Source of the DNA: Litoreibacter arenae DSM 19593
GTDB lineage: Bacteria > Pseudomonadota > Alphaproteobacteria > Rhodobacterales > Rhodobacteraceae
Length of the DNA stretch: 64,000 nt
Assembly (NCBI RefSeq): GCF_000442275.2
Contig: NZ_KE557312.1
Span: 1 to 64,000, forward strand
Direction: 5' to 3'
Position numbers and translations under genes: made by a program. This document shows positions 21,847 to 38,825 of the stretch, piece by piece (position 1 is the stretch's first letter; each line of letters opens with the position of its first letter). Under the pieces are notes generated by a model. It did not search any database. It saw only the letters and a program-made list of their open reading frames with translations, and had not been told where the DNA came from.

Positions 21847-21855
21847 GTCTTACTT

Positions 21856-23058: not shown

Positions 23059-23059
23059 T

Positions 23060-24006: not shown

Positions 24007-25074
24007 TCAGCCGCCGCGCCGGAAGTGGATTTGCATCCGGTCCAAAACGTCGACGCCCATTTGCAAGAGCAGGTCCAGCACGTCGAGCGGCACCCAGTTT
24101 TCCCGGATCAGTCCTTCGTGGTGCAGGTAAAAGTCCATCACCCGCATTGTCACCGCGCGGCCCGTCGGGCCGACACCGAGGAAGTCGTTGCCGACGTGGT
24201 TGGCGAAAACGCTGGGCCAGCCGCCAGTAACAGAATAGGGGCCGTCACCCACGCGGATATAATGCCCGCCCCCGTGCTTGGCTTTCATCTCGGTGATCTC
24301 GTCCCACTGGCCGCCACCCTTGCGCTTGGGGAAGGCCTTGCGGAACGGCAGCTGGTGGTAATCGACGAAGCCTTGCAGCCCGCGGGTCGTGCCGATGCCG
24401 GAGGGCCCATACCACATCATTTTCGGATGCCAGTGGTCCTTTTGAGGCATGTTAAGCAGCCCCTCGCGGCCCTTGTTGTTCAGGTCGTCATAAGCGCCAA
24501 GAGTGCCATGCATAGAAAGCGTCTGGGCGATACTCGCCTGTGACTGCTGGGGATTTTGCTCACTGAACAACAATCCGTCAGCGGTAAGTGGACCGGGCCA
24601 CATGCCCTCGGTACCGAGGCTCGGGGCCAGCGGCCAGAACCCGGCTTGCCGGATGACGTCCAGCACATCCCACAGGCAGTTGGACTGCACGATCTTGCCG
24701 TCACGCATCTCATGGACTTCGCCATAGCGTATATATAGCGGACGACCCGTAGCTGGGATTGTCAGCCAGTCGTGGCGGAATGTGCCGCAGTAATGGCCCA
24801 TCATGGCTACGTATTCACGCCCCTCGAAGCTGCCGCCCATTACGATCAGGTCGCGGCGCTCAAGGTCCGGCAGGGCAGTCATCAGCGGCATCCAGAGTGT
24901 CGCGACAAGCCCCTCGTGGCCGTGCGATTCGTTCATCGGGTGCGAGGCGCGAAGGTGAATATCAGTGCGATAGAGCGCGTTAATGTTGCTTTGCAGGCCG
25001 TTTGCTCCAGCGTCGGCAAGACGGCTTAACCCTTCGTAAACTACGGTTTTGTTTTTCAAATTCCGGTCCGGCAC
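24007..25074 (-). CDS. Large SnoaL/NTF2-like protein, 355 residues, two domains
   Basis: The central part (EYVAMMGHYCGTFRHDWLTI then YIRYGEVHEMRDGKIVQSNC, residues about 90-135) has the cone-shaped SnoaL/NTF2-like pattern with the conserved end-strand E-x-DGKI. A second, weaker SnoaL-like half follows (about 210-350; HYIRVGDGPYSVTGGW and VTMRVMDFYLHHEGLIRENW). Single-domain SnoaL proteins are about 130-160 residues. Members of this fold act as cyclases, dehydratases, isomerases or epoxide hydrolases, so the reaction cannot be named. The gene is divergent from the CUT1 importer operon that carries three more SnoaL-type genes and is probably controlled with it. Confidence 0.75.
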   Translation of the reverse strand: MPDRNLKNKTVVYEGLSRLADAGANGLQSNINALYRTDIHLRASHPMNESHGHEGLVATLWMPLMTALPDLERRDLIVMGGSFEGREYVAMMGHYCGTFRHDWLTIPATGRPLYIRYGEVHEMRDGKIVQSNCLWDVLDVIRQAGFWPLAPSLGTEGMWPGPLTADGLLFSEQNPQQSQASIAQTLSMHGTLGAYDDLNNKGREGLLNMPQKDHWHPKMMWYGPSGIGTTRGLQGFVDYHQLPFRKAFPKRKGGGQWDEITEMKAKHGGGHYIRVGDGPYSVTGGWPSVFANHVGNDFLGVGPTGRAVTMRVMDFYLHHEGLIRENWVPLDVLDLLLQMGVDVLDRMQIHFRRGG

Positions 25075-25127
25075 GATTTTTCAAAGCTCCCTGTTTCTGG
25101 GGTCATTCATGCTTGGAATGAAAATTA

Positions 25128-25143
25128 TTGCAAGCGTATTCAA
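25128..25143. promoter_or_regulatory. Candidate operator for the second LacI-type regulator
   Basis: TTGCAAGCGTATTCAA has an imperfect 16-bp dyad centred on CG (10 of 16 symmetric positions), the usual form of natural LacI-family operators. It lies in the 183-bp divergent region between the SnoaL gene (start 25074) and the CUT1 importer operon (start 25258). Assignment to the regulator at 32154 is inference. Confidence 0.4.
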
Positions 25144-25257
25144 CAGCCGCTACCGTTGGAGATGTCGAGGCTCGCAAACGGCCTGATCAACAATCAAATG
25201 TCTTGGTGGTCCCTCTCGGACGGCACAGGACAACTGCCAACAACGGGAGATCCCTGA

Positions 25258-26493
25258 ATGAACATCATCTTGAAAACGACGGCTGCGGCCTGCGCCCTCA
25301 TCGCCGCCGCCAGCGCGGCGACCGCCGAGTGCAGTATTGACGGCGGTCGCGTCAACATCATCGGCAATGAGTTTCCTGCCATCCAGACCGTCGCCGCTGC
25401 CGCTGCCGAATGCACTGGCGTAACCGTCGAGGCGAACCTGACCGCCGATCACCAGACGCTGAATGTCGCTGGCATGTCCGGCAATCCCGCCGAGTATACC
25501 AGCGCAATCGTCGCCAACTCCTCCATCGTCGCGCTGATCAACGAGGACGTGATCCGGCCGCTGGATGAACTGGTCGCAGAATACGGCAAGGACATCCCGC
25601 AGCGCCAGCTGATCACCGTTGGAGGCAAGGTCATGGCTGTTGCCTTTATGGCAAACGCCCAGACGCTGACTTACCGCGCTGACGTGCTGGAGGAGGTCGG
25701 GCTCGACGTGCCGACGACCTATGAAGAGGTGCTGGTGGCTGCCGAGGCTATTCGTGCAGCAGGCATCATGGAAAACCCTGTTGGCGGCCCTTACGCGGCT
25801 GGCTGGAATCTCGCTCAGGAATTTAACAATATGTATTTGGGGCACGGCGGAGAGTTCTTCGAGCCGGGCACAGCCAAGATCTCCATCAACAACGAAAAGG
25901 GCGTTGCCACGCTCGAAATGATGAAGGCCCTGACCGAGTACATGAACCCCGACTACCTGACCCACGATTCCAACGGAACGTCCGCAGAGTGGGAGGCGGG
26001 CAATGTTGCCCTGATGCACATGTGGGGCAGCCGTGCGCAGGTCCTGATGGACGACGAAGGCTCCGAGCCGCAGGTGTATGAGAACACCAAGGTGGCAGCG
26101 CCGTTGATGGTCGGTGACAGTGGCGTGCCCGCATCGACCCTGTGGTGGGATGGCTGGACAGTCGCCAAGAATATAAGCGACGAAGACGCTGCCGCCACGT
26201 TCCAGGCGCTGGCCTATGCGGTTTCGCCGCAAACGTTGAACGACACGACGATGAATCAGGCGGTGTGGCTGATCGACGGCTACGAGCCTGCCCCGGTCTC
26301 GGAAGGTGTGTTGGCTGCGGTTGCCTCCGGCACCAAGCCTTATCCGATGTTGCCTTACATGGGCCTGCTGCACACCGCATCCGGTGACAACATCGCAGAC
26401 TTCCTGACCGGCAAGGAAAGCGCCGAGCAGACGTTGGCCGATATCGAAGCGGCGTACAATGCTGCTGCAAAAGAGCAGGGCTACATCCAGTAA
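25258..26493 (+). CDS. CUT1-type extracellular solute-binding protein (family 1)
   Basis: A 411-residue lipoprotein-less periplasmic binding protein with a Sec signal (residues 1-23, ending ATA) and mature start ECSIDGGRVNIIG. It has the family-1 pattern of carbohydrate-binding proteins: APLMVGDSGVPASTLWWDGWTVAKN near 280-300 and GMMLP-like hinge regions. Two early cysteines (mature residue 2 and the one in AAECTG) could form a disulfide. It heads a long operon, so its ligand is presumably the substrate of the SnoaL/HisD/SDR enzymes. CUT1 systems carry oligosaccharides, polyols and glycerol-phosphate-like compounds. A strong hairpin follows. Confidence 0.88.
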   Translation: MNIILKTTAAACALIAAASAATAECSIDGGRVNIIGNEFPAIQTVAAAAAECTGVTVEANLTADHQTLNVAGMSGNPAEYTSAIVANSSIVALINEDVIRPLDELVAEYGKDIPQRQLITVGGKVMAVAFMANAQTLTYRADVLEEVGLDVPTTYEEVLVAAEAIRAAGIMENPVGGPYAAGWNLAQEFNNMYLGHGGEFFEPGTAKISINNEKGVATLEMMKALTEYMNPDYLTHDSNGTSAEWEAGNVALMHMWGSRAQVLMDDEGSEPQVYENTKVAAPLMVGDSGVPASTLWWDGWTVAKNISDEDAAATFQALAYAVSPQTLNDTTMNQAVWLIDGYEPAPVSEGVLAAVASGTKPYPMLPYMGLLHTASGDNIADFLTGKESAEQTLADIEAAYNAAAKEQGYIQ

Positions 26494-26505
26494 GCCAGAC
26501 CTCTT

Positions 26506-26550
26506 GAAAGGGCGCGCCGAACCTGCTTCGGGAAACCGTCGCGCCCTTTC
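26506..26550 (+). other. Intercistronic hairpin after the CUT1 binding-protein gene
   Basis: A perfect 11-bp stem (GAAAGGGCGCG / CGCGCCCTTTC) with a 23-base loop, starting 12 bp after the stop. No T-run directly follows, so it is more likely an mRNA stabiliser or partial attenuator than a full terminator. Confidence 0.75.
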
Positions 26551-26583
26551 TACTGCCCAATCTCACACAAAGGCAGCCGCGCC

Positions 26584-27606
26584 ATGAAACACAGTTCCTT
26601 TTTCTGGTTCGTCCTTCCATCCACGTTGTTGATGCTGGCGTTCATCGCCTTTCCCATCGTGTCGGTCGTGACTCAATCCTTCTATACCGCCCACGAGCAA
26701 GTCGTCGTGCAGGTGGAAAACTGTGGCCCCTTCGGCTGCACACAAGAAACCTCCGTCGATCAGGAAGCCACGGCAGCCCTCCGCGAGGCCGAGCCGATGG
26801 GCGAGTTTGCCGGCTTTGAAATCTACACGGACCGCAACCATCTGGCCTTCGGCGAAGTCGCAGCGGCTTGGGTCAACGCCGACGGCCTTCCGGACTTCGG
26901 GCGCAGCTTGATGAACCTGCCGTTCTACAAGGCGCTCGCGTTCACGCTGACCTACACCGCCGTCGTCACTCCGCTGACGATCATCTTGGGCTTTTTCATC
27001 GCCATCGCGGTCAACTCCGTAGCGCGGGCGATGAAGGGGCCGACCATTTTCTTCTCGCTGCTGCCGATGATTGTGACGCCGCTGGTTGGCTCGCTGATCC
27101 TGTTCTGGATGGTCGACGCGCGCGGTATTCTGGGTGCCGGATTGCAGTGGCTGACGGATGACCCGAACCTGTCGGTCAAGGCGTCGACCGGGCTGATGTG
27201 GATCATGTTGATGGTCTACGGCGTCTGGCACGCGGCTCCGTTCGCCTTCGTCGTTTTCTACGCAGGTCTACAGACGGTCAATACTGACACGCTTGAAAGC
27301 GCCATGGTCGATGGTGCCACCCGCTGGGAGCGCATCCGCTTCGTCGTGCTGCCGCATCTGTTCCCGCTGGTCACCTTTGTGGCGCTCATTCAGCTGATGG
27401 ACAATTTCAGGGTCTTTGAACCCATCGTCAGTTTTCAGGCGTCGGCCCACGCCACCTCGCTGTCCTACGCGATCTACAACGATCTGGGGGGCGAGACGCG
27501 CTTGCTGTCTTCCGCCGCTGCCACGTCGGTGTTGACCATCATCGGCATCGCCATCCTTCTGTCGCCCGTCCTTGTTCGGACATGGCGCGACTTTGACCGC
27601 AAGTAA
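26584..27606 (+). CDS. CUT1 ABC importer permease 1, with an enlarged periplasmic loop
   Basis: MalF/UgpA-like inner-membrane subunit of 340 residues. After the first membrane segment (FWFVLPSTLLMLAFIAFPIV) comes a soluble insertion of about 80 residues (35-115) containing CGPFGC and a charged helix, before the second segment at about 120. Typical sugar permeases of this class are about 290-310 residues without it. The ATPase-contact EAA loop is present (ESAMVDGATRWERIRFVVLPHL, about 239). The inserted loop may help dock the binding protein (inference). Confidence 0.88.
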   Translation: MKHSSFFWFVLPSTLLMLAFIAFPIVSVVTQSFYTAHEQVVVQVENCGPFGCTQETSVDQEATAALREAEPMGEFAGFEIYTDRNHLAFGEVAAAWVNADGLPDFGRSLMNLPFYKALAFTLTYTAVVTPLTIILGFFIAIAVNSVARAMKGPTIFFSLLPMIVTPLVGSLILFWMVDARGILGAGLQWLTDDPNLSVKASTGLMWIMLMVYGVWHAAPFAFVVFYAGLQTVNTDTLESAMVDGATRWERIRFVVLPHLFPLVTFVALIQLMDNFRVFEPIVSFQASAHATSLSYAIYNDLGGETRLLSSAAATSVLTIIGIAILLSPVLVRTWRDFDRK

Positions 27607-27620
27607 GAGGACGCAAGGAC

Positions 27621-28499
27621 ATGTCAAAAGCTACTCGTCAACCGCCCTCCGTGCGGATCATGGCCACCTCATTTCTGGTGATCTGGTTGATCGTCGCGGC
27701 CTTCCCCTTCCTCTGGACACTCTGGGGATCGTTCAAGGTCGAGGGGGATTTTTTCTCCAAGGCCAACTGGGCCAACGCCATTTTCGGCACCCTCACCCAA
27801 GAGGAAACCGGAAGCAGCTTTACCGGTGCGGGCTATTACGGCGCGTGGGTGCAGGAAGAATTCTGGCGCGCCGCGCTCAACACCACGCTCGTGTGCATAT
27901 TCGTCGTAACCGTATCTCTCACCTGCGGCACGCTGGGCGGCTACGCACTGGCGCGATCGACCCACCGCTATGCGTTCTGGTTCCTTCTCTTCGCCCTCAT
28001 GTTCCGCGCCATGCCGCCGATTACGCTGGTGTCAGGCTACCTGTTGCCATTCTTCGAGTGGAACCTCTGGGGCCACCTCTACACGACGGTCATCGTGCTC
28101 GTGGCGCTGAACCAGCCGTTCACGCTCTGGATGCTGCATTCGTTCTTCAAGAACATCCCCAAGGATCTGGACGAAAGCGCCATGGTTGACGGCTGCACCC
28201 GCTTTCAGGCGTTCCGCCATGTCATCATTCCGGTCATGTGGCCGGGGGTTATCACGACAGGGCTGTTCAGTTTCCTGCTGGCCTACAATGACTTTGCCGT
28301 GACCACGATGCTTCTGAGCAAGGAAAACCAGACAATGGTGCCGAAGATCGCAAGTTTCCTCGGGACTACTCAAACCAAGGGTAACGTCATGTTCGCCGTG
28401 TCGGCCGTTGTCTCGGTCACCGCGCCGCTGTTCGTGATGGTTATGTTCTTCCAACGTCAAATCGTGAGCGGGCTGACCGCTGGCGCCGTCAAAGGATAA
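27621..28499 (+). CDS. CUT1 ABC importer permease 2
   Basis: MalG/UgpE-like inner-membrane subunit of 292 residues. First membrane segment at about 15-35; an extended periplasmic stretch follows (KVEGDFFSKANWANAIFG onward to about 80); the EAA loop is DESAMVDGCTRFQAFRHVIIPV near 182. It starts 14 bp after permease 1 with AGGACG upstream, and the ATPase gene follows after 12 bp. Confidence 0.9.
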   Translation: MSKATRQPPSVRIMATSFLVIWLIVAAFPFLWTLWGSFKVEGDFFSKANWANAIFGTLTQEETGSSFTGAGYYGAWVQEEFWRAALNTTLVCIFVVTVSLTCGTLGGYALARSTHRYAFWFLLFALMFRAMPPITLVSGYLLPFFEWNLWGHLYTTVIVLVALNQPFTLWMLHSFFKNIPKDLDESAMVDGCTRFQAFRHVIIPVMWPGVITTGLFSFLLAYNDFAVTTMLLSKENQTMVPKIASFLGTTQTKGNVMFAVSAVVSVTAPLFVMVMFFQRQIVSGLTAGAVKG

Positions 28500-28511
28500 G
28501 GGGCTTTAGTT

Positions 28512-29567
28512 ATGGCCAGACTTCAATTGAAAAACGTGAACAAGCGTTGGGGCTCCTTCGTCGGTGTCGACAACTTCAACCTCGACATTGCCGATGAGGA
28601 ATTCCTCGTGCTGCTGGGTCCCTCGGGCTGTGGCAAATCGACGACCATGCGGATGATTGCGGGCCTTGAGGATGTCACCGATGGCGAGATCATTTTGGGC
28701 GACCGTGTCGTCAACGATCTGGAGCCGAAGGACCGCGACATCTCCATGGTGTTTCAGTCCTATGGTCTCTACCCGAACCTGACCGTCTACGAAAACATCC
28801 GTTTCCCGCTGCGCGTGCGCAAGGTGCCGAAGGAAAAGCACGACGAGATGGTGATGAAGGCGATCCAGATGACCGAGTTGGAGGACTTCATGCATCGCCG
28901 TCCGGCTGAACTTTCGGGCGGCCAGCGACAGCGCGTCGCCTTGGGCCGCGCCATCGTGCGCAAGCCGACTGTGTTCCTGATGGACGAGCCGTTGTCCAAC
29001 CTTGACGCCAAGCTGCGCGTCAGCACGCGCGCGCAGATAAAGAACCTGCAATCGAAGCTGAAGACCACCACTGTCTACGTGACCCACGACCAGATCGAGG
29101 CCATGACGCTGGCCGATCGTGTGGTTGTGATGAACGCAGGCAAGATCCAGCAGGTCGGCACGCCCACGGATATCTACGACATGCCCGCCAACACATTTGT
29201 CGCCAGCTTCATCGGCTCCCCGGCCATGAACCTCGTCGAGGGGACGCTGGAGAGCGGCACCTTCACGGCAGACGGTATCAGGGTCGAAGGCCTGCCCGCA
29301 GGTCCTTCCGGCAAGGTCACGCTGGGTTTTCGCGCCGAGGACGCCGAAATCGTCGATGCGGGCGGTCAGATCTCCGCGCCGATGTACTCGATTGAGTTGC
29401 TGGGCGAGGCCTCGATGATCAGTTGGCGTCTTGGCGGTGCGTTGGTGTCGGTCAAGACCAACAAGGACTATCGCGCCGAGATCGGCGAGATCGTGCAGGC
29501 AAGCATTCCTGCCGCCATTTGCCACCTCTTCGACACCGCTTCTGGCGAAAGGATTCATCTGAAATGA
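28512..29567 (+). CDS. CUT1 ABC importer ATPase (UgpC/MsmK-like)
   Basis: A 351-residue ATPase with Walker [10 protein letters not shown] near residue 36, Q-loop [14 protein letters not shown], signature [14 protein letters not shown] and Walker [13 protein letters not shown]. The C-terminal MalK-like regulatory TOBE part (from about 235, [14 protein letters not shown]) is complete. The stop overlaps the next SnoaL gene (ATGA), tying transport to catabolism in one transcript. Confidence 0.93.
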
Positions 29568-30049
29568 CCCCTACCGAAGAGGCGGAAGCCACCCGTCAGG
29601 TCATCTTGCGAATGGAGGCGGCACTTGCCGCGAATTCCAACGACATGGCGGCCCATTTCCACGAGGATTTCCGCTGGATGGGCAATCAAGGCTGCGGCAC
29701 CAAGCCGGACTTGCAGGCGTTCCGAAACAATTGGCAGCTGCCCATCCGCGCTGCGTTCACGGAACGCGATTACAAAACAGACCGCTTCATCTGCGAAGGT
29801 GAATGGGCGTCCTGCTTCGGCCATATCGAGGCGACGCATTCGGGCACGTTCATGGGCATTGAGGCAACCGGCAAGCGGGTCAAAATCCCGTATATGGATT
29901 TCTGGAAGGTCGAGGACGGTCGGATTAAGGACAACTGGGTCTCCGTCGATTTTCCCTCAGTTTTAGCCCAGCTGGGCCGCGACGTATTCGATGGCCATGG
30001 TTGGGAGCATTACGACGACGGCACCGCCACGCCGCAACACCCGAAATAA
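29564..30049 (+). CDS. Single-domain SnoaL/NTF2-like protein, 161 residues
   Basis: A compact SnoaL-like fold: N-terminal helix ([20 protein letters not shown]), then [13 protein letters not shown], and the closing strands [20 protein letters not shown] with the E-DGRI-x-NW signature of ester-cyclase-type members. Fold members bind a small substrate in the cone; common catalytic residues are His and Asp, and both are present (H45 in [10 protein letters not shown]103-E105 region). The gene overlaps the ATPase gene by four bases and is followed 12 bp later by the HisD-like gene, so it probably handles the imported compound early. Reaction unknown. Confidence 0.82.
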
Positions 30050-30061
30050 GGACGCAAGACA

Positions 30062-31393
30062 ATGACCATTCGCCACCTGAAAACCGCCCGTTCCGAAGCC
30101 GACCGCGCCGAGGATGACGCAAAGGTTCGTGCCATCGTCGAGAATGGCCTGAAAGATATTGAGGCCCGTGGCGATGCAGCCGTGCGGGAAATGGCCGAGA
30201 AGTTCGACAATTACAGCCCCGCCAGCTACCGTCTGTCCGACGACGACATCCAGTCCATCATCGCCAAGGTGTCCGACCGCGACATGGCCGATATTCGCTT
30301 CGCGCAGGAACAGGTGCGCAACTTCGCGCAGGCGCAGCGGGACTCGATGCTCGACATCGAGGTGGAGCCGATGCCCGGAGTGATCCTCGGTCACAAGAAC
30401 ATTCCCGTGCAATCCGCGGGTTGCTACGTGCCGGGCGGCAAGTTCCCCATGGTCGCCTCCGCCCACATGTCCGTCGCCACCGCCAGCGTCGCCAAGGTGC
30501 CGCGCATCGTCGCTTGCACACCGCCCTTCAAGGGCGAGCCGAATCCGGCGGTGATCGCCGCGATGCACATGGGCGGCGCGCATGAGATCTACGTGCTGGG
30601 TGGTATCCAAGCCGTCGGAGCCATGGCCATCGGCACCGAGACGATTGAGCCGGTGCATATGCTCGTCGGCCCCGGCAACGCATTTGTGGCGGAAGCCAAA
30701 CGCCAGCTGTTCGGGCGCGTCGGCATCGACCTGTTCGCAGGCCCTACCGAGACCATGGTGATCGCCGACGAAACCGCCGCAGATGGCGAGCTTTGCGCCA
30801 CAGACCTGCTGGGGCAGGCGGAGCACGGGTATAACTCGCCCGCCGTGCTGCTGACCAACTCCGAGAAACTCGCCAAAGACACTCTGGCCGAGATCGACCG
30901 CCTGCTGAAAATCATCCCCACCGCCGACACCGCTGGGAAAAGCTGGGAAGATTACGGCGAGGTGATCGTCTGCGACACATATGACGAAATGCTGGCCGTG
31001 GCCGACGACATTGCATCCGAGCATGTGCAAGTGATGACCGACCGCGACGACTGGTTCCTTGAGAACATGACCTGCTACGGCGCGCTGTTCCTCGGGCCGC
31101 GCACCAATGTCTCCAACGGCGACAAGGTGATCGGCACCAACCACACGCTGCCGACCAAGAAGGCGGGGCGCTATACGGGCGGTCTCTGGGTTGGCAAGTA
31201 TCTGAAAACACATAGCTATCAGAAGATCACAACCGATGCGGCCGCGGCCAAGATCGGCGCTTACGGCTCGCGCCTGTGCCTGCTGGAAGGCTTCGTCGGC
31301 CATGCCGAGCAATGCAACGTCCGCGTGCGTCGCTATGGTGGCATCAATGTGCCTTATGGCGGGCCAGCCCCCTATACGGACGCCGCAGAATGA
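30062..31393 (+). CDS. Histidinol-dehydrogenase-like enzyme (HpsN-type), NAD-dependent alcohol-to-acid oxidase
   Basis: The 443-residue protein is a HisD homologue. Zinc-site residues are present: Q and H in [10 protein letters not shown], then [17 protein letters not shown] and [14 protein letters not shown]-binding and core motifs ([30 protein letters not shown]) are intact. Context is catabolic, not histidine synthesis: it lies among importer, SnoaL and SDR genes. HisD homologues such as HpsN oxidise sulfopropanediol to sulfolactate in two NAD-dependent steps, so a terminal primary alcohol to carboxylate conversion is likely here. The substrate is not identified. Confidence 0.88.
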
Positions 31394-32154
31394 GCCTTCC
31401 CAAGACACCCTCCTTCAACCTCTCCGGCAAACGCGCGCTGGTGACAGGCGCGTCTTCCGGCATTGGGCTGGCCTGCGCCGTGGCGCTAGCCGAGGCGGGG
31501 GCAGAGGTCACACTCGCCGCGCGGTCTGCCGACAAGTTGGAAGCGACTGCTCAGGAACTGCGCGGTTCGGGGTTCAAGGCGGAAACGATGCCGTTGGACG
31601 TCGCGGACATTCCCGCAATGCAAGCAACGGTGGACAAGGCTGGCCCGTTCGACATACTGGTGAACTCCGCCGGTCTCGCCATTCATAGCCCCGCGCTTGA
31701 GACGCAGGAAGAAGACTTCGACCGCGTGTCCGACCTGAACTTCAAGGGCGCATATTTCCTGACCACCGCCGTGGCCAAAGGCCTGATAGCGGCGGGAAAG
31801 CCCGGCTCGCTCATCAACATCACCAGCCAGATGGCCCATGTCGGCGGTATCGACCGCGCGGTCTATTGCGGCACCAAGCACGCCGTCGAAGGCTTTACCA
31901 AAGCCATGGCAATCGAGTGGGGGCCGCACAGCATCCGCGTCAACACGATCTGCCCGACCTTCGTCCGCACGCCCCTGACCGAAAGCACCTTCGACAACCC
32001 CGAGCGGGTCAAATGGATCGAGGAAAAGATCAAGCTGGGCCGCGTGGGCGAGGTCACCGACATTATGGGGCCGGTGGTTTATCTGGCCTCCGATGCCTCG
32101 GCGCTGATGACAGGCACGCATCTGCTGATCGACGGAGGTTGGACGGCGGATTGA
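31390..32154 (+). CDS. Short-chain dehydrogenase/reductase
   Basis: Classical SDR of 254 residues: cofactor motif TGASSGIG at about 19-26, NSAG near 95, catalytic Ser in [12 protein letters not shown], and Y-x3-K in AVYCGTKHA near 160. An NAD preference is suggested by the absence of a basic residue after the glycine motif but is not certain. Start ATG 31390 overlaps the HisD-like stop (ATGA) and its stop shares TGATG with the regulator gene. It probably oxidises a secondary alcohol of the same substrate as the HisD-like enzyme. Confidence 0.9.
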
Positions 32155-33167
32155 TGGCACGCAAGGTCACCTCTCTTCAGGTCGCGGAACGCGCAGGGGT
32201 GAGCCAGTCGGCTGTCAGCCGCGTCTTCACCCGTGGCGCATCCGCGTCGCCTGCGACCGTGGCGAAGGTGAAGAAGGCCGCTGCAGAACTGGGCTACCGC
32301 CCCAACGCCATGGCCCGCGCCATGATCACCGGCAAAAGCCGGATGATCGGGCTGGTGGTCGCCTATCTGGAAAACCAGTTCTACCCTGAAGCGGTGGAGC
32401 GGCTGTCAAACGCGCTGCAAGAACGCGGCTACCATGTGCTGATGTTCATGGCGTCCCCTACAGCGGGCGATGATGTGCAGTCGGTCATGGAGGAAATTCT
32501 GGACCATCAGGTTGAGGGGATCGTGCTGGCCTCGGTCTCCATGTCCTCCAGCCTCAGCACCCGCTGCGCGGAACACGGCATCCCCGTCGTGCTGTTCAAC
32601 CGTGAGCAGGACGACCCGCGCATGTCTGCGGTCACCACCAACAACTACGGTGGCGGCTTCGCAATCGGTACCCATTTTGCGGAGCTTGGTCACAGCCGTA
32701 TCGGCTACATCGCCGGATTCGAAGGCGCATCCACGCAGCGGGATCGCGAACAAGGATTCCGCGACGGGCTTGCCTCAGCGGGATTGGATTTGTCGGCGCG
32801 TGAGGTCGGCAACTTCATTTATGCCGACGCCCGCGCGGCGGCGCTGGAGATGTGCGCAGGCACTGACCGTCCCGAGGCCATTTTCGTGTGCAACGACCAC
32901 ATGGCGTTCGCCGTCATGGACGCGTTGCGCTTCAAATTGGGGTTGCGGGTGCCGGAAGATATCAGTGTCGCAGGCTTCGACGACGTGCCGATTGCGGCGT
33001 GGCCCGCCTATGACCTGACCAGCTACCGCCAACCCATCAACCGGATGGTGGCGCAAACGGTCGAGGCGCTGATGCAGAGGATAGAAGACCCGACACGTCC
33101 TGCACATAGGGCGAAACTGGAAGGGGCATTGATCCAGCGCGGATCGACCGCTCCGGCAAAAGGATAG
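32154..33167 (+). CDS. LacI-family transcriptional regulator of the SnoaL/HisD island
   Basis: The N-terminal DNA-binding domain reads TSLQVAERAGVSQSAVSRVF, with hinge LGYRPNAMARAM, then a 280-residue sugar-binding-like effector domain ending in the usual GFDDVPIAAWPAYDLTSYRQP. The open frame extends upstream inside the SDR gene; ATG 32154 (TGATG with the SDR stop) begins the homology. It is embedded mid-operon, an arrangement that gives autoregulated local control. A candidate operator lies at 25128-25143. Confidence 0.9.
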   Translation: MARKVTSLQVAERAGVSQSAVSRVFTRGASASPATVAKVKKAAAELGYRPNAMARAMITGKSRMIGLVVAYLENQFYPEAVERLSNALQERGYHVLMFMASPTAGDDVQSVMEEILDHQVEGIVLASVSMSSSLSTRCAEHGIPVVLFNREQDDPRMSAVTTNNYGGGFAIGTHFAELGHSRIGYIAGFEGASTQRDREQGFRDGLASAGLDLSAREVGNFIYADARAAALEMCAGTDRPEAIFVCNDHMAFAVMDALRFKLGLRVPEDISVAGFDDVPIAAWPAYDLTSYRQPINRMVAQTVEALMQRIEDPTRPAHRAKLEGALIQRGSTAPAKG

Positions 33168-33170
33168 GAT

Positions 33171-34181
33171 ATGCGCGGCTTTGACAGCAAATGGCGTGAC
33201 GTTCCCGATTTCATTATCGGCATCACCAAGGAAATCTGGGAGGACCGCGAAATCGGCTCCCTGCGCAAGCGTTATGCGGACGGTCTGATCGTGCGCTCTC
33301 CTGCGTCGGTGGTGGTCGACAATTCCCGCGTGATCGCCGCCACTATGGCGACGCTGGCCGAGTTCCCCGACCGCGAATTGCTGGGCGAGGATGTGATCTG
33401 GTGCGACGACCCCGAAGGTGCCACCGAAACCTCCGACGCCTTCCTGTCCTCGCACCGCCTCTATTGCACCGCGACGCATACACATCCGGGCATGTATGGC
33501 GCGCCCACCGGACGGCGCTTTGCCTACCGCATCCTTGCCGACTGCGCGATCCGCGACGACGCTGTTTATGACGAATGGCTGGTACGCGACCAGTCGGCCA
33601 TTGTGCAGCAAATGGGGGCGGATATCGTCGACTGGACCCGCGACCTGATCGCCCGCGAAGGCGGGGCGGAGCGTTGCGTGAAACCCATGCCCCCCGCCAA
33701 TGATGTGGCGGGGCCGTATACCCGCACGGGCAATGACAGTGAATGGGGCGAACGCTACGCCGATACGCTGCGGGCAATCATGGCCGCTGATATGCACGTG
33801 ATCCCCAAACGTTACGACCGCGCCTGCGCGCTGCATTATCCGGCCGCGAATGACGCGATGGGGTGGGCCGAGGCGGACCAGTTCTGGATGGGCCTGCGCG
33901 CGGCATTCCCTGATGCTGAGTTCACCATCGACCACGTCATCGGCCGCGACGATCCGCTGATGCCGCCGCGTGCCGCCGTGCGCTGGTCGCTGCACGGCAA
34001 GCATTCCGGCTGGGGCCGCTTCGGCACGCCGACAGGGGCCGAGGTCTACATCATGGGCATCAGCCACGCCGAGTTCGGCCCGTTCGGAACAGGCGAGCCG
34101 ACCATCCGCCGCGAATACACATTGATTGATGAAACGGCGATCTGGAAACAGATATTGCTCCAGACAGGACAGCACGAATGA
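33171..34181 (+). CDS. Double SnoaL/NTF2-like protein, 336 residues (paralogue A)
   Basis: Two SnoaL-like halves: residues about 20-145 (FIIGITKEIWEDREIGSLR ... DEWLVRDQSAIVQQMG) and about 195-330 (ACALHYPAANDAMGWAEADQFW ... YTLIDETAIWKQILLQ). The first half resembles SnoaL ester-cyclase proteins that begin ITKEIWEDR. It is clearly paralogous to the next gene: both share the opening, TLAEFPDR-x-LLGEDVIW, GKHSG and EVAIWKQILL-type end. It follows the regulator by 3 bp and overlaps paralogue B by four bases. Enzymatic role unknown. Confidence 0.8.
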   Translation: MRGFDSKWRDVPDFIIGITKEIWEDREIGSLRKRYADGLIVRSPASVVVDNSRVIAATMATLAEFPDRELLGEDVIWCDDPEGATETSDAFLSSHRLYCTATHTHPGMYGAPTGRRFAYRILADCAIRDDAVYDEWLVRDQSAIVQQMGADIVDWTRDLIAREGGAERCVKPMPPANDVAGPYTRTGNDSEWGERYADTLRAIMAADMHVIPKRYDRACALHYPAANDAMGWAEADQFWMGLRAAFPDAEFTIDHVIGRDDPLMPPRAAVRWSLHGKHSGWGRFGTPTGAEVYIMGISHAEFGPFGTGEPTIRREYTLIDETAIWKQILLQTGQHE

Positions 34182-35149
34182 AGGGCTTTTCGAACCAGTT
34201 CAAGGACTTGCCGGACTACATTATCAAGATCACCAAAGAGATTTGGGAGGATCGCGGTCTTGCCACCTTGCACCACTATTACGGCAAGGACATCCCGATG
34301 CGCTTTCCCTCCGGGCTGGTAAAGGGCAATGAGAGCGTAATCGACGGGACGCTGGCGACGCTGGCCGAATTCCCCGACCGCTACCTGCTAGGCGAGGACG
34401 TGATCTGGTCGCAAGACGGCGACCGCTACCTATCTTCGCACCGGATCGTGACGGGCGGTACGCATACGGGTCACGGGGCGTTCGGGCCTCCGACGGGGCG
34501 CAAGTTTCAGGTCCGCACCATCGCCGATTGTGCCGCCAAGGATGACGTGATCGACGACGAATGGCTGATCCGCGACGTCGGCGGCATTGCGCGGCAACTC
34601 GGCTGGGACCCGAAAGACTACGCCGCGTGGCAGATCGAGCAGGAAGGCGGACCAGAGAAATGCACACGGCCGTTCCATCCGTCGCATGACGTTGACGGCC
34701 CCTACATGGGGCGCGGCAATGACAACGAATGGGGCGCCAAGCTGGCCAGCATCCTGCAAAGGATCATGGACAAGGACTTCACCGTCATTCGCAGCGAATA
34801 TGACCGCGCGGTCTGCACCGAGCATTGGGGCGCGCGCAACGGCTGGTCGTGGGACTTCCCGGAGACCGACTGGATGCGCCTGCTCTCGTCCTTCCCGACG
34901 GCCAAGTTTGAAATCCACCACCAGATCGGCCGCTCTGACGCTGGAACACCCAACCGCGCCGCCGTGCGCTGGTCGCTGACCGGCAAGCATAGCGGGCCGG
35001 GCTTCTTCGGCGCACCCACCGGGGCCGAGGTGCATGTCATGGGCATAACCCACGCCGAATGGGGTGACTGGGGCCTGCGCCGCGAGTTCACGCTGATCGA
35101 CGAAGTGGCAATCTGGAAACAAATCCTGCTGCATCAAGGCGCGCAGTGA
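34178..35149 (+). CDS. Double SnoaL/NTF2-like protein, 323 residues (paralogue B)
   Basis: Adjacent paralogue of the preceding gene, with the same two-domain plan: DYIIKITKEIWEDRGLATL, LAEFPDRYLLGEDVIW, NDNEWGAKLASILQRIM, AAVRWSLTGKHSG and FTLIDEVAIWKQILLH. It lacks a short insert present in paralogue A (near residue 80, DDPEGATETSD). The pair may form a heteromer or act on successive intermediates. Last gene of the importer operon; a 138-bp gap follows with a perfect 12-bp palindrome (CCCGTGCACGGG, 35176-35187). Confidence 0.8.
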   Translation: MKGFSNQFKDLPDYIIKITKEIWEDRGLATLHHYYGKDIPMRFPSGLVKGNESVIDGTLATLAEFPDRYLLGEDVIWSQDGDRYLSSHRIVTGGTHTGHGAFGPPTGRKFQVRTIADCAAKDDVIDDEWLIRDVGGIARQLGWDPKDYAAWQIEQEGGPEKCTRPFHPSHDVDGPYMGRGNDNEWGAKLASILQRIMDKDFTVIRSEYDRAVCTEHWGARNGWSWDFPETDWMRLLSSFPTAKFEIHHQIGRSDAGTPNRAAVRWSLTGKHSGPGFFGAPTGAEVHVMGITHAEWGDWGLRREFTLIDEVAIWKQILLHQGAQ

Positions 35150-35175
35150 TGTTGCAACGCGCCCGCTCGCTTTTG

Positions 35176-35187
35176 CCCGTGCACGGG
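35176..35187. promoter_or_regulatory. Perfect 12-bp palindrome before the bicupin gene
   Basis: CCCGTGCACGGG lies in the 138-bp gap between the SnoaL pair and the bicupin gene. It could be an operator or a small hairpin; it does not match either LacI-type site in the window. Confidence 0.3.
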
Positions 35188-35287
35188 TTCTTGGAGAGCC
35201 GCCGCGCGCGCAGGCTGAATTTGCGCCCGCCGTCAGGATAGGCACAAGACAATCGCAACCCTACATAACTTCAGTCAGGAAGACATC

Positions 35288-36256
35288 ATGACACCTCAAG
35301 ACATGGAAGCCCGCATCGTTCGCTACGGCGATCTGCAACCCTGCAAAACCGCCTTCATCGACGCCCACACGCCTGGCAGCGATCAGAAGGAGAACTTCAC
35401 CATTATCGGCGGCGGGGTCTCTGAGTCCCCCGACCAGCACGTCCACATCTCGATACCGCACGGGTTCAACATCGGCGCTGCGGGCCAGCCGCCCCATTGC
35501 CGCAACTCGCTTCACAATCACCGCACGGCGGAGGTGTTCTTCATCCTCAAAGGCCGCTGGCGCTTCTTCTGGGGCGAGCATGGCGATCTGGGCGAAGTGG
35601 TGATGGAGGAGGGCGATATCTTCAACATCCCCACCAACATCTTCCGCGGTTTCGAGAATATCGGCACGGATTACGGGATGATCATGGCCATTCTGGGCGG
35701 TGACGACGCGGGCGGTGGCGTGATCTGGGCGCCGCATGTGATCAAGGACGCCAAGGCACATGGCTTGGTGCTGGGTGACAACGGCAAGCTCTACGACAGC
35801 AAGAAAGGCCAGAGCCTGCCCGACGGCGTGAAGCCAATGCCGCTGCTGACGAAGGACGAGTTGGACAAGGTCGACAAACCTACCCCGATGGACGTGATTG
35901 GCGGCTATGTGCGGCGGTATCTCGATATGGAGGCGCTGGGGCGCAGCGGCAAGCCGGTCAAGGTGATCGGCGAGAACGGCCTGATCCGCGACAAGCCGGG
36001 TTTCGAGGTCGACCTGATCACCCGTGAAAGTGCTTCCGACAAGAAACACAAACATGACCGCCCTTCGGTGCTGATGCCCATGCATGGCCACTGGCGTGTG
36101 GATTACGAGGGCGGCTCGGTCACTCTGGCCCCCGGCGACACGATGTCGGTGCCTGAAAACCTGATGCACTCCGCAGTGCCGTCGATGACTGGAGAGGCGT
36201 CACTCTATCACGTGGTTGCCACCGACGACGCCGCCGGAGCGACCTGGAAGGGCTAA
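35288..36256 (+). CDS. Bicupin protein, possible metal-dependent dioxygenase or isomerase
   Basis: Two cupin domains in 322 residues. The first has the complete metal motif: PPHCRNSLHNHRTAEVFFILKG, residues about 71-92 (His, His and Glu), with a closing MEEGDIFNIPTNIFRGFEN. The second half (about 255-310, DRPSVLMPMHGHWRVDYEGG ... LAPGDTMSVPENLMHS) has lost most ligands. This arrangement resembles gentisate/hydroxyanthranilate-type dioxygenases and sugar bicupins, but no aromatic substrate site can be inferred. It opens the second operon of the island; a hairpin separates it from the MetE-like gene. Confidence 0.8.
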   Translation: MTPQDMEARIVRYGDLQPCKTAFIDAHTPGSDQKENFTIIGGGVSESPDQHVHISIPHGFNIGAAGQPPHCRNSLHNHRTAEVFFILKGRWRFFWGEHGDLGEVVMEEGDIFNIPTNIFRGFENIGTDYGMIMAILGGDDAGGGVIWAPHVIKDAKAHGLVLGDNGKLYDSKKGQSLPDGVKPMPLLTKDELDKVDKPTPMDVIGGYVRRYLDMEALGRSGKPVKVIGENGLIRDKPGFEVDLITRESASDKKHKHDRPSVLMPMHGHWRVDYEGGSVTLAPGDTMSVPENLMHSAVPSMTGEASLYHVVATDDAAGATWKG

Positions 36257-36264
36257 CGCAATCT

Positions 36265-36288
36265 GCCGGTCCCCCGCGGGGAACCGGC
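36265..36288 (+). other. GC-rich hairpin between the bicupin and MetE-like genes
   Basis: Stem GCCGGT / ACCGGC enclosing CCCCGCGGGG with one C-A mismatch. There is no T-run, so partial attenuation or mRNA protection is more likely than full termination. Confidence 0.6.
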
Positions 36289-36319
36289 GCTTCACCAAAC
36301 GACCGTTGAAAGGGCACCA

Positions 36320-37444
36320 ATGACCAAAGTTATGACAACCCATGTCGGCTCGCTGCCACGCACGCAGAAAGTTGTGGATTTCATTTTCGCCCGTGAAAAC
36401 GGCGAGAAGTATGATGCGGATGCGTTCGATAAAGCGATGACCCAAGCGGTCAGCGACACCGTGGCCAAGCAGAAGGCCGCTGGGGTGGATATCGTCTCGG
36501 ACGGGGAAACCTCAAAGATCAGCTACGCCACCTATGTCAAGGACCGCTACACCGGCTTTGACGGCGACAGCCCGCGCAACGCGCCTGCTGATTTGAAGAA
36601 ATTCCCCAGTTTCCTGAAGCGTCTGGCCGATGACGGCGGCACGCCGCAATATGCGCGGCCCATGTGTGTGGGCGAGGTGAAGTCCAAGGGGCAGGGGGAG
36701 CTGGAAAAGGACATCAGCAATCTCAAGGCTGCGATGGCGGAGCATGGCGTTGAGCGGGGCTTCATGAACGCGGCGTCGCCGGGGGTGATTTCGCTGTTTC
36801 TACAAAACGACCACTACAAGACGCGGGAGGCTTATCTCGCCGCGTTGGCCGACGCCATGAAGGCGGAATACGAGACCATCGTCGCCTCTGGCCTTGATCT
36901 GCAACTGGACTGCCCCGATCTGGCGCTGTCGCGGCACATGCTGTTCAATGATCTTTCCGATGACGAGTTTCTGAAGGTCGCGGCCAGCCATGTGGAGGCG
37001 TTGAACCACGCGCTTCAAGATGTGCCTGCCGAGAAGGTGCGCGTGCATATTTGCTGGGGCAACTACGAAGGCCCGCATGTGTGTGACATCCCCATGTCGA
37101 AGATGTTCGATACGTTGATGGCGACCAAATCGCGCTATGTATTGTTCGAGACGTCTAACCCGCGCCACGGCCATGAATGGGCCGTGTTCCGCGACCGCAA
37201 GGCGGATATTCCGGACAACAAGGTGCTGGTGCCGGGCGTGGTGGACACGACGACGAACTTCGTCGAGCACCCCGATCTGGTGGCGGAACGCATCCGGCGC
37301 TTCGTGGATATCGTCGGGGCGGATAGGGTCGTTGCAGGGTCCGATTGCGGGTTTGGTACCTTTGCGGGCTTTGGCGCAGTGGACCCGGAGATCGCCTATG
37401 CCAAGCTGGGCGCATTGGCCGAAGGGGCGGCGCAGGTGCGATGA
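36320..37444 (+). CDS. MetE-core zinc enzyme (cobalamin-independent methionine synthase / epoxyalkane:CoM transferase family)
   Basis: A 374-residue single-barrel relative of the MetE catalytic domain, half the length of full MetE and without its N-terminal barrel. The zinc thiol-activation site is intact: H and C in VRVHICWGN (about residue 241), E in VLFETSNPRHGHE (about 276) and C in VAGSDCGFGTFAGFG (about 341). The N-terminus TTHVGSLPRT is the usual start. Such stand-alone proteins move an alkyl group to a thiol, open epoxides with a thiol, or split a thioether. That suggests a methyl, sulfonium or thioether step in this pathway (inference). It overlaps the hydrolase gene (ATGA). Confidence 0.87.
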   Translation: MTKVMTTHVGSLPRTQKVVDFIFARENGEKYDADAFDKAMTQAVSDTVAKQKAAGVDIVSDGETSKISYATYVKDRYTGFDGDSPRNAPADLKKFPSFLKRLADDGGTPQYARPMCVGEVKSKGQGELEKDISNLKAAMAEHGVERGFMNAASPGVISLFLQNDHYKTREAYLAALADAMKAEYETIVASGLDLQLDCPDLALSRHMLFNDLSDDEFLKVAASHVEALNHALQDVPAEKVRVHICWGNYEGPHVCDIPMSKMFDTLMATKSRYVLFETSNPRHGHEWAVFRDRKADIPDNKVLVPGVVDTTTNFVEHPDLVAERIRRFVDIVGADRVVAGSDCGFGTFAGFGAVDPEIAYAKLGALAEGAAQVR

Positions 37445-38136
37445 CACCGCTTGTCCTTTTGCCCGGCATGATGTGTGACGCGCGGTTGTTCGCGCCGCAG
37501 ATCGCTGCGTTTTCCGCCACCCGCGCGGTGCAGGTCGCACCGATTGGCGGGGCGGATAACGTCGCGGACTTGGCGGCGGAGGTGCTGGTCCATGCGCCGC
37601 CACGCTTTGCGCTGGCGGGGTTGTCCATGGGCGGGATCGTGGCGATGGAGGTGTTTCGCCAAGCACCCGACCGGATCGACCGCATTGCCTTTCTGGACAC
37701 CAACCCCAAGGCGGAGGCTGATGCCATCGCCAAAGGCCGCGAGCCGCAGATCGCGCGGGCTGAAGCGGGGGAGTTGCGGGCCATCATGCGTGACGAGATG
37801 AAGCCGCGCTATCTGGCAGATGGGCCGAGCCGTGGTGCCATACTCGACCTGTGCATGGACATGGCGGAAGCCCTTGGGCCGGACGTCTTCGTGCGACAAT
37901 CCCGCGCGCTTCAAACGCGGCCCGACCAGCAAGACACGCTGCGCCAGATCAAAGTGCCGACGCTGGCGTTGTGCGGGCGGGAGGACATGCTGTGTCCGAT
38001 ACATCGCCACGAGTTGATCTGCTCGCTTGTCGCTGGTGCCACGCTGGAGGTGATTGACGGCGCAGGCCACCTACCCACGCTGGAACAACCCCAAGCAACC
38101 AACGCGGCCTTGGCCCGCTGGCTGGAGGCATCATGA
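37441..38136 (+). CDS. Alpha/beta hydrolase
   Basis: A 231-residue alpha/beta-fold hydrolase with the oxyanion region VLLPGMMCDARLF, nucleophile elbow GLSMGG near residue 62, acid in LCGREDMLCP near 184 and histidine in GAGHLPTLE near 206, so the triad is complete. ATG 37441 overlaps the MetE-like stop. Esterase, lactonase or thioesterase activity is possible; placing it between the thiol-active zinc enzyme and the RraA-like protein suggests it acts on a product of the former. Confidence 0.87.
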   Translation: MTPLVLLPGMMCDARLFAPQIAAFSATRAVQVAPIGGADNVADLAAEVLVHAPPRFALAGLSMGGIVAMEVFRQAPDRIDRIAFLDTNPKAEADAIAKGREPQIARAEAGELRAIMRDEMKPRYLADGPSRGAILDLCMDMAEALGPDVFVRQSRALQTRPDQQDTLRQIKVPTLALCGREDMLCPIHRHELICSLVAGATLEVIDGAGHLPTLEQPQATNAALARWLEAS

Positions 38137-38825
38137 AAGACAGTCTACTCACCCTTCTTCGCAGCGTGGACACGCCGACCGTTTGCAACGCAATCGAAGT
38201 GGCTCAAGGCAAGCGCGGGTTTAACGACTTCACCCGTGGCACCATGCTGATCAACGAGCCGACAGGCGTGGTTGTGGGCTATGCAAGCACGGCGAAAATT
38301 GCCGCGGTGAAACCGCCGACCGAGCCGCCGGACGTGATCCGCGCACGCCGCATGGCATATTACAAACAGATGGCGGAGGCGCCACAGCCCTCCGTCTGCG
38401 TGATCGAGGATGAGGACTATCCGAACGCCATCGGCGCCTACTGGGGCGAGGTGAACACCGAGATACACAAAGGCTTTGGCATGTCCGGCACCCTGACCAA
38501 CGGCGTCATGCGCGATTTGGGTGATATGGCACCGGACTATCCGGTGGTCGCTGGCAGCATCGGGCCAAGCCACGGCTTCGTGCATGTGACGGCGCTGGAT
38601 GTGCCTGTGACGGTGTTCGGGCTGACGGTGCGCCCCGGCGATCTGGTCCATGCCGACCGCCACGGGGCGGTTCTTGTGCCGCCCGAGGTGATTGACCAAC
38701 TCGAGGCCGCCATCGCCCAGATGCAGGACACGGAACGTCTGGTGTTGGGTCCGGCCCGCGAGAAGGGTTTCAACTTCGCCGCGTTCGAGCGGGCTTGGGA
38801 GGCGTTCGAGAAAGCGCGAACCTGA
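38133..38825 (+). CDS. RraA-like protein, probable class II oxo-acid aldolase/decarboxylase
   Basis: A 230-residue protein of the RraA/HMG-aldolase fold: substrate and metal motif GEVNTEIHKGFGMSGTLTNGVMRDL (about 111-135, including the R-D pair) and GDLVHADRHGAVLVPP (about 169-184). Relatives cleave 4-hydroxy-4-methyl-2-oxoglutarate or decarboxylate oxaloacetate with Mg2+. The catalytic R-D and acidic loop are present, which favours an enzyme over the RNase E-inhibitor type. It overlaps the hydrolase gene (ATGA) and ends the operon; it may deliver the final C-C cleavage. No terminator is visible in the 161-bp gap that follows. Confidence 0.87.
   Translation: MKDSLLTLLRSVDTPTVCNAIEVAQGKRGFNDFTRGTMLINEPTGVVVGYASTAKIAAVKPPTEPPDVIRARRMAYYKQMAEAPQPSVCVIEDEDYPNAIGAYWGEVNTEIHKGFGMSGTLTNGVMRDLGDMAPDYPVVAGSIGPSHGFVHVTALDVPVTVFGLTVRPGDLVHADRHGAVLVPPEVIDQLEAAIAQMQDTERLVLGPAREKGFNFAAFERAWEAFEKART

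Follow-up and report, generated by a model that had tools for sequence, protein, structure and literature searches.

The window analysed here is a stretch of 64,000 nt from Litoreibacter arenae DSM 19593 (NZ_KE557312.1, positions 1-64,000), and the element in question is a catabolic gene island at 24007-38825. The original prediction had described at this place a contiguous set of genes for a CUT1 importer, four SnoaL proteins, a HisD-like dehydrogenase, a short-chain dehydrogenase (SDR), a LacI regulator, a bicupin, a MetE-core protein, a hydrolase and an RraA-like protein. Each of these genes was found to be present and open, and was matched to its family by Pfam and NCBIfam models, as listed below.

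24007-25074, minus strand: double-domain SnoaL/NTF2-fold protein A (Pfam SnoaL, 4.4e-18, two stretches), divergent from the transporter
25258-26493, plus strand: CUT1 solute-binding protein (SBP_bac_1, 4e-21)
26584-27606, plus strand: CUT1 permease 1 (BPD_transp_1)
27621-28499, plus strand: CUT1 permease 2 (BPD_transp_1)
28512-29567, plus strand: ABC ATPase of MalK/UgpC type (ABC_tran and OB_MalK)
29564-30049, plus strand: single-domain SnoaL protein B (SnoaL, 5e-17), overlapping the ATPase gene by 4 bp
30062-31393, plus strand: HisD-like zinc dehydrogenase with motif GKFPM (Histidinol_dh, 6.7e-130), nearest solved relative HpsN
31390-32154, plus strand: SDR (adh_short_C2, 2.4e-58), best NCBIfam model KduD, under its cut-off
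32154-33167, plus strand: LacI-family regulator (LacI and Peripla_BP_3), ATG at 32154, with a TTG at 32151 also open
33171-34181, plus strand: double-domain SnoaL protein C (SnoaL, 2.8e-15, two stretches), 53% identical to D
34178-35149, plus strand: double-domain SnoaL protein D (SnoaL, 2.5e-16, two stretches), AlphaFold2 model with mean predicted local distance difference test score (pLDDT) of 90
35288-36256, plus strand: bicupin (Cupin_2, 1.5e-12), putative metal ligands H76, H78 and E82 from the cupin motif, with R120 at the usual third His
36320-37444, plus strand: MetE-core protein, the catalytic domain of cobalamin-independent methionine synthase (Meth_synt_2, 1.2e-14), zinc ligands H243, C245, E277 and C343
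37441-38136, plus strand: alpha/beta hydrolase (Abhydrolase_6, 3.3e-13), nearest models PcaD enol-lactonase and BioH methyl esterase, both under their cut-offs
38133-38825, plus strand: RraA-like aldolase or decarboxylase (RraA-like, 8e-19)

The dense packing of the genes was borne out for the plus strand. Five junctions (ATPase/SnoaL, HisD/SDR, SnoaL/SnoaL, MetE/hydrolase and hydrolase/RraA) consist of a 4-bp ATGA overlap, and at the SDR/LacI junction the LacI ATG (32154) shares one base with the SDR stop codon. The first SnoaL gene, in contrast, is divergent and stands outside the transporter operon. The plus-strand genes form two groups, operon 1 and operon 2, separated by a 138-bp gap (35150-35287), on the plus strand of which no terminator-like site was detected. 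The G+C content of the island (0.59-0.63) is similar to that of the right flank, and no tRNA gene was found in the 64-kb window. The best solved relatives of the binding protein, at low score, were MalE3, sugar-binding proteins and SmoF, all generic sugar binders. The view of a dedicated island for import and degradation is supported.

The unity of the island had been predicated on the joint occurrence of both operons (24.0-35.1 and 35.3-38.8 kb) in other genomes, and such joint occurrence was observed. Gene counts for related loci are tblastn matches inside the fetched stretches, 'absent' meaning absent from that stretch. Among the loci found with HisD (best 80 of 578), 69 were at least 19 kb long, and 55 of these 69 carried all seven of the solute-binding protein, both permeases, ATPase, HisD, SDR and LacI together with at least three of the four operon-2 genes. 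All four operon-2 genes were present in 41 of the long loci, three in 15, two in 3, one in 4 and none in 6. HisD and cupin are over-represented by design in the locus counts, HisD having been used to find the 80 loci and cupin to find further stretches. SnoaL A as query gave matches in 64 of the 80 HisD-found loci, mostly paralogues near 30-40%. In the other direction, 24 of the 40 stretches around SnoaL matches (35 genomes) carried HisD and LacI along with two or more genes of operon 2, whereas in 10 of the 40 the SnoaL gene was accompanied by no HisD and by no more than one gene of operon 2.

At the level of whole genomes, the SnoaL protein was present in 114 (E<=1e-20) and the MetE protein in 98 (E<=1e-120) of the 248 genomes of the window's family. 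Both were found in 94 genomes, SnoaL alone in 20, MetE alone in 4 and neither in 130 (p 1.3e-42 by a Fisher test, which here and throughout ignores the relatedness of genomes). Because of this co-occurrence the arrangement is more than chance. Since the two operons co-occur both in related loci and in the family genomes, they constitute one functional unit, which is at times rearranged, as in locus L050 with the cupin and HisD genes on the opposite strand at the far end. The alternative of two unrelated operons was rejected on the basis of the 55 loci with both operons and the 94 genomes with both proteins.

Comparison of the related loci indicated a modular organization. The recurring core consists of the cupin and a retro-aldolase, which is RraA or HpcH/HpaI, and in most cases also of the hydrolase; it is combined with either the HisD-SDR pair or a 3-oxo-tetronate kinase (OtnK). 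Among 137 cupin loci, HisD was detected in 119 and OtnK in 7, and the two were never found together; RraA was detected in 86 and HpcH/HpaI in 24, 2 loci having both, and in 29 neither was seen within the stretch. For further counts a locus was taken as complete when it carried cupin, HisD and either RraA or HpcH, giving 95 loci, or 93 after removal of the duplicates L080 and L145; the other locus counts keep overlapping loci of one genome. The number of SnoaL proteins was three to five in 77 of the 93 complete loci, and SDR was present in 93 of 95. No large additional gene family recurred inside or beside the islands, the largest group being of 6 loci. A GMC oxidoreductase was found in 11 cupin loci and an S-adenosylmethionine-dependent methyltransferase in 21, all with MetE, while GH1, dipeptidase and PNPOx-like proteins occurred in single or few loci.

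The HisD-like protein was examined with respect to its nearest solved relatives, the (R-)2,3-dihydroxypropane-1-sulfonate (DHPS) 3-dehydrogenases known as HpsN. In PMC11382572, HpsN is described with the motif G-R-Y-A/S-H, a conserved His126 that contacts the sulfonate and a Lys353 that binds it too, and histidinol-type HisD with the motif G-S-A-P-L. Among the 143 HisD-family proteins of our loci, the motif was GKFPM in 113, GKYPL in 10 and GKYPM in 2. At position 126, Met was found in 116 proteins, Leu in 20, Ile in 5, and Tyr and His in 1 each, so that His126 is missing in 142 of 143; this count was made over all 143 proteins, as within the GK[FY]P[ML] type it would be circular, the motif defining the type. 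Lys353, on the other hand, is kept in 142 of 143. All 125 sequences of the GK[FY]P[ML] type retain the zinc ligands Q248, H251, D352 and H411, the catalytic residues E318 and H319, and Lys353, and from these residues the island HisD looks catalytically complete.

The window genome has three HisD-family genes: the island gene, a GRYAH-type HpsN (L159, 47% identical) and a more distant relative (L160, 37% identical), which we take to be the biosynthetic hisD. The sole carrier of His126 among the 143 proteins is L159, the separate HpsN located outside the island. The island HisD shares with HpsN the fold family, zinc ligands, catalytic E318 and H319, and Lys353, but it differs in the motif (GK-F/Y-P-M/L in place of GR-Y-A/S-H), in the lack of His126 and in its context of CUT1, SnoaL, cupin and RraA genes. 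It also scores above the cut-offs of Pfam Histidinol_dh and TIGR00069, the families of biosynthetic HisD, but has GKFPM where GSAPL would be expected of the latter. The island HisD is thus probably not a DHPS enzyme, and its substrate may place an oxygen anion at Lys353. Annotations of 'hisD' in such clusters probably denote neither histidine biosynthesis nor DHPS degradation.

These observations bear on the sulfur-linked or sulfonated substrate that the original prediction had entertained, in which HisD would act as a DHPS-type dehydrogenase and MetE would cleave a C-S bond. The relationship to HpsN, the retained Lys353 and the intact zinc site of MetE speak for such a pathway. Nevertheless, the residue reported as conserved in HpsN (PMC11382572) is missing from the island enzyme and from 142 of the 143 proteins, and the genome has a separate GRYAH-type HpsN outside the island. 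No gene for handling sulfite or sulfonate was seen among the recurring genes, though no search aimed at these was made. We therefore reject the DHPS route and regard sulfonate or sulfonium catabolism in general as highly improbable.

HisD is not confined to the island. In the class-wide search that also led to the alphaproteobacterial loci L223 and L224, HisD was detected at E<=1e-170 in 45 of 289 genomes, and several of the 20 stretches read contained HisD and SDR without cupin; therefore, HisD alone is no marker of the island. Locus L128 (8106-13786) carries an 84% identical HisD with SDR and a CUT2 importer, without the cupin module, together with a 3-hydroxyacyl-CoA-dehydrogenase/L-gulonate-dehydrogenase-like and a metallo-beta-lactamase-type lactonase-like protein (both read by eye). 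The HisD-SDR pair can thus serve a context other than the island. In locus L231 (5799-8966), three tandem cyclase-like proteins are encoded near a HisD relative with a TRAP importer (read by eye).

The zinc-thiol chemistry originally proposed for MetE agrees with its conserved residues. H243, C245, E277 and C343, aligned to three solved MetE-family proteins, are kept in 82 or 83 of 83 sequences; in the residue counts for MetE, RraA, hydrolase and cupin only identical proteins were dropped. Because all four zinc ligands are kept, the protein could plausibly transfer an alkyl or methyl group to a thiol. The same His, Cys, Glu and Cys ligands align in Core-MetE and MetE methionine synthase, from which the island protein differs by lacking the N-terminal half, by scoring far under the NCBIfam methionine synthase cut-offs and by its location in a catabolic operon. 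RraA keeps the R127-D128 pair in 79 of 79 sequences, and HpcH/HpaI aldolases replace it in other lineages, which agrees with a retro-aldol cleavage. The fold family and the Arg-Asp pair are common to the RraA-type aldolases for 4-hydroxy-4-methyl-2-oxoglutarate (HMG) and 4-carboxy-4-hydroxy-2-oxoadipate (CHA), but the island RraA represents a distinct subfamily. In the hydrolase, S62, D182 and H210 are each kept in 95 of 96 sequences, and the R160 shared by all 96 may point to an acidic substrate.

For the cupin, H76, H78, E82 and R120 are invariant in 124 of 124 sequences, with Arg where the usual third metal His sits. Fold searches were evaluated for the best 50 of 1,833 and the best 50 of 1,226 matches. 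Among the best 50 listed for the cupin model, ring-opening dioxygenases ranked first (quercetin 2,3-dioxygenase, 3-hydroxyanthranilate dioxygenase, salicylate 1,2-dioxygenase and gentisate-type cupins), and oxalate decarboxylases came next. For the SnoaL D model, the best 50 listed neighbours included polyether epoxide hydrolases, IdmH, SnoaL-like cyclases and PhzA/B. PhzA/B forms an imine on a cyclohexenone-type ring. The likeness of SnoaL D to these proteins is one of fold; they differ from it in being biosynthetic or uncharacterised, at 10-27% identity.

In some loci OtnK takes the place of HisD. In locus L199, OtnK and OtnI score above the equivalog thresholds of the NCBIfam models for 3-oxo-tetronate kinase (560.7 versus 350) and 2-oxo-tetronate isomerase (332.5 versus 325), and OtnI was present in 6 of the 7 OtnK loci. 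3-Oxo-tetronate is the substrate of OtnK, and OtnK and OtnC together yield dihydroxyacetone phosphate (DHAP). The variant loci thus share OtnK and OtnI with the D-erythronate/L-threonate pathway (OtnK-OtnC-OtnI). They differ from it in that this module lies outside the window, as a replacement in other genomes, and that the four OtnK loci for which an annotation exists (L197, L199, L216 and L218) list no tetronate dehydrogenase. Tetronate catabolism of the DUF1537/OtnK type was rejected as sole explanation on this ground and by the lack of OtnK in the island.

In connection with this module, ascorbate or a related reductone or lactone was considered as substrate. The cupin would cleave the enediol, the hydrolase would cut the oxalyl ester, and the C4 tetronate would proceed through OtnK/OtnC or through HisD and SDR. 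Such a route would account for the replacement of HisD by a tetronate kinase module and for the cupin fold near quercetin 2,3-dioxygenase, an enzyme that acts on an enol-ketone; the ascorbate side chain would offer the CH(OH)CH2OH unit needed by HisD-type enzymes, and SDR would be given a task. However, HpcH/RraA, SnoaL, MetE and amidase would be left without a job, and the tetronate dehydrogenase is lacking from the annotation of the four loci named above. We consider an ascorbate-like substrate improbable.

Two other variable modules concern methyl groups and nitrogen. In the 93 complete loci, MetE and hydrolase were both present in 59, MetE only in 14, hydrolase only in 20, and none lacked both (p 0.035, relatedness ignored). 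This pattern is as expected, if weakly so, when either protein handles one methyl group. A homocysteine S-methyltransferase (PF02574, 2.1e-52) is encoded directly after HisD-SDR in one locus, L228, and in no other locus read. A second HisD type with the motif GR[YF]P[LI] was represented by 14 sequences. Among cupin and HisD loci longer than 13 kb (duplicates kept), an amidase was found in 10 of 14 two-HisD loci versus 4 of 94 one-HisD loci; in the remaining four two-HisD loci, L155 has a carbon-nitrogen hydrolase and L209-L211 carry the second HisD near the edge of the stretch. Each of the 7 complete loci that have just one SnoaL gene contained an amidase as well, and the 80 complete loci without amidase contained 2-5 SnoaL genes or, in 1 locus, none.

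From the genes present, the demands on the substrate were deduced as follows. A methyl group is needed because MetE is present, and a CH2OH beside an OH because HisD is present. The ring or chain should be at the oxidation level of a dione because the annotation of the OtnK modules includes no dehydrogenase, and removable nitrogen substituents are called for by the number of SnoaL proteins and the amidase. Mycosporines share a 5-hydroxy-5-hydroxymethyl-2-methoxycyclohexenone core with one or two amino acid substituents, and by chemical reasoning they meet all these demands, including retro-aldol cleavage to pyruvate and a C4 keto acid. We tentatively propose that the island encodes a complete pathway for a small ring compound bearing methyl and hydroxymethyl groups, the most likely substrate class being the mycosporines, that is, mycosporine-like amino acids (MAAs), gadusol and fungal mycosporines.

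In the proposed pathway, the CUT1 importer would bring the mycosporine into the cell, and the SnoaL/NTF2-fold proteins would hydrolyse its enaminone or imine C-N bonds to give free amino acids and a 2-methoxy-1,3-dione (4-deoxygadusol or gadusol). HisD would turn the CH2OH beside the tertiary OH into a carboxylate; relative to the CH(OH)CH2OH unit, the enolate oxygen would occupy the position that the imidazole has in histidinol and the sulfonate in DHPS. The cupin with O2 would then cleave the dione ring beside the methoxy carbon, and the methyl group would either be taken over by the zinc-thiol site of MetE or be removed when the alpha/beta hydrolase cleaves a methyl ester. From the resulting 4-carboxy-4-hydroxy-2-oxoadipate, the classical substrate of RraA-type CHA aldolases, RraA (or HpcH/HpaI) would produce pyruvate and oxaloacetate. 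In the loci that lack HisD, pyruvate and 3-oxo-tetronate would arise from gadusol, and OtnK and OtnC would convert the 3-oxo-tetronate to DHAP.

Several of the observations fit this proposal: the mutual exclusion of HisD and OtnK, the methyl-handling pattern, the S-methyltransferase of L228, the amidase, the fold neighbours, and the SnoaL, importer and OtnK modules that share one plasmid in Vibrio pelagius. The combination of amidase and second HisD fits mycosporine-glutaminol, an amino alcohol with an amide. Mycosporine-glutaminol is assigned to terrestrial fungi and cyanobacteria in PMC3083659, which also cites the conversion by bacteria, Vibrio harveyi being suggested, of shinorine and porphyra-334 into mycosporine-glycine and 4-deoxygadusol. 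Our search of the open-access literature found no characterised gene set for mycosporine or MAA catabolism. In the V. pelagius locus L153 (465-5707), SnoaL and importer genes adjoin sarcosine oxidase subunits and a formyltetrahydrofolate deformylase; one may speculate that these neighbours could dispose of released glycine-type side chains.

A number of findings weigh against mycosporines. SDR is nearly always present and yet has no fixed role in the scheme, and OtnI is needless if 3-oxo-tetronate forms directly. The exclusive pattern of MetE and hydrolase depends on the definition of a complete locus: over all 119 HisD and cupin loci (both 71, MetE only 20, hydrolase only 20, neither 8) no clear departure from chance was observed (odds ratio 1.4, by hand). 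The 8 loci lacking both also lack an aldolase in the stretch, and the MetE-only loci L223 and L224 have cupin and RraA relatives only 31-37% identical. Typical cupin dioxygenases carry a three-His (or three-His-one-Glu) metal motif, and this site is not found in the island cupin, which has two His and one Glu with Arg. Its model has a mean pLDDT of 70, falling below 50 at residues 17-75, so that the N-terminal half, which carries the metal motif, is poor; its fold matches reach a TM score of about 0.4, oxalate decarboxylases matching almost as well as the ring-opening dioxygenases. None of the five solved RraA matches (E<=0.01) is named as an HMG/CHA aldolase. HisD-SDR pairs occur away from the cupin too, as noted above. 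Finally, the locus has sugar-like features: CUT1 importers and LacI regulators usually serve sugars, the HpcH proteins score nearest HpaI and GarL, a relative of galactonate dehydratase of the mandelate racemase/enolase superfamily is present in 6 cupin loci, and MFS and TRAP importers in other loci suggest sugar acids. It is because of the SDR, OtnI, the weak MetE/hydrolase pattern, these sugar-like features, the cupin site and the distance of RraA that the assignment to mycosporines is kept tentative.

The sugar-like features point to the main rival, a sugar-acid route. A sugar, alditol or aldonate would be imported by CUT1, its terminal CH2OH oxidized by HisD to an aldarate, and a keto group made by SDR; the hydrolase would open a lactone, cupin or SnoaL proteins would dehydrate or isomerise, and RraA or a GarL-like HpcH would split a 2-oxo-3-deoxy-aldarate into pyruvate and an aldehyde. 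Such a route gives the near-constant SDR a function, in line with its under-cut-off scores to KduD and gluconate dehydrogenase, and it suits CUT1 and LacI, the affinity of HpcH to HpaI and GarL, the gluconate/galactonate-dehydratase relatives of the 6 cupin loci, the OtnK tetronate modules and an FGGY-like kinase that adjoins L122 (read by eye). It leaves unexplained, however, MetE, the amidase with the second HisD, and the multiple SnoaL proteins of most complete loci. No sugar-acid dehydratase of known family recurs among the conserved genes, and retro-aldol cleavage of a linear 2-oxo-3-deoxy acid would not be expected to yield 3-oxo-tetronate for OtnK. The sugar-acid route is doubtful. Unlikely, too, is the more general alternative that another methylated, aminated ring or polyol is degraded by the same logic of C-N cleavage, CH2OH oxidation, demethylation, ring or chain cleavage and retro-aldol reaction. 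It draws on the same gene evidence, as the families allow many substrates, but it is less specific and by itself does not explain the OtnK and amidase variants.

With regard to novelty, the statement that this enzyme mix matches no described pathway agrees with the outcome of searches in one open-access library, among whose listed matches no paper assigning this gene set was found; that library is without most subscription papers and all preprints. An importer with a catabolic operon is a known kind of system, and the pathway appears to be new. It is possible, and put forward with considerable reserve, that these are the first genes for the full breakdown of mycosporine-like sunscreens, with NTF2-fold chromophore hydrolases, a third substrate class for HisD, a ring-opening cupin with a two-His-one-Glu site and zinc-thiol O-demethylation, giving pyruvate and oxaloacetate or, with the tetronate kinase, pyruvate and DHAP, in bacteria ranging from those of leaves and roots to Roseobacters and streamlined alphaproteobacteria. 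If mycosporines are indeed the substrates, genes and chemistry would become available for what microbes do with these widespread natural sunscreens; bacterial conversion of them is on record, and no genes for it were found. If another compound is imported, the modules (HisD/OtnK, RraA/HpcH, amidase with second HisD) would still narrow down what an unannotated 'ester cyclase / histidinol dehydrogenase' cluster may act on to a few substrates that can be tested.

The distribution of the island is broad and takes in many bacteria of marine or plant-associated habit. The cupin was present in 35 of 397 sampled genomes of the phylum, and SnoaL and cupin searches of plasmids, with the neighbourhoods read, gave relatives outside the family in Pantoea, Klebsiella, Priestia, Novosphingobium, Sinorhizobium, Martelella, Roseibium, Deinococcus, Vibrio, Salinivibrio and Thioclava. 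L223 and L224 belong to alphaproteobacterial genomes of 1.4 Mb; their stretches, of 31-32% GC, carry importer parts, five SnoaL and SDR, with HisD 73-74%, MetE 50-51%, RraA 33-37% and cupin 31-32% identical to the island proteins. In size and GC content these genomes resemble streamlined ocean bacteria, and about 11 kb of each small genome is given to the island-like set. Its occurrence there, together with SnoaL in 114 of the 248 family genomes, suggests that the compound is common in nature.

On the flanks of the island, two genes identified by eye as an RND-type efflux pair are located directly downstream at 38954-43233, one for the membrane fusion protein and one for the large transporter; the membrane fusion protein had no match in the related SnoaL- and HisD-found loci. 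It is followed at 43234-46777 on the minus strand by a GH42 beta-galactosidase and a KDPG/KHG aldolase. Upstream, at 16460-23881, two Gfo/Idh/MocA oxidoreductases, a xylose-isomerase-like TIM barrel protein, a LacI regulator and a CUT2-type importer (binding protein, permease and ATPase) are encoded, a sugar-type locus that we would guess from its families to be inositol-like. A thiamine-pyrophosphate enzyme at 14568-16436 adjoins this locus, and its position would make it, again at a guess, IolD-like.

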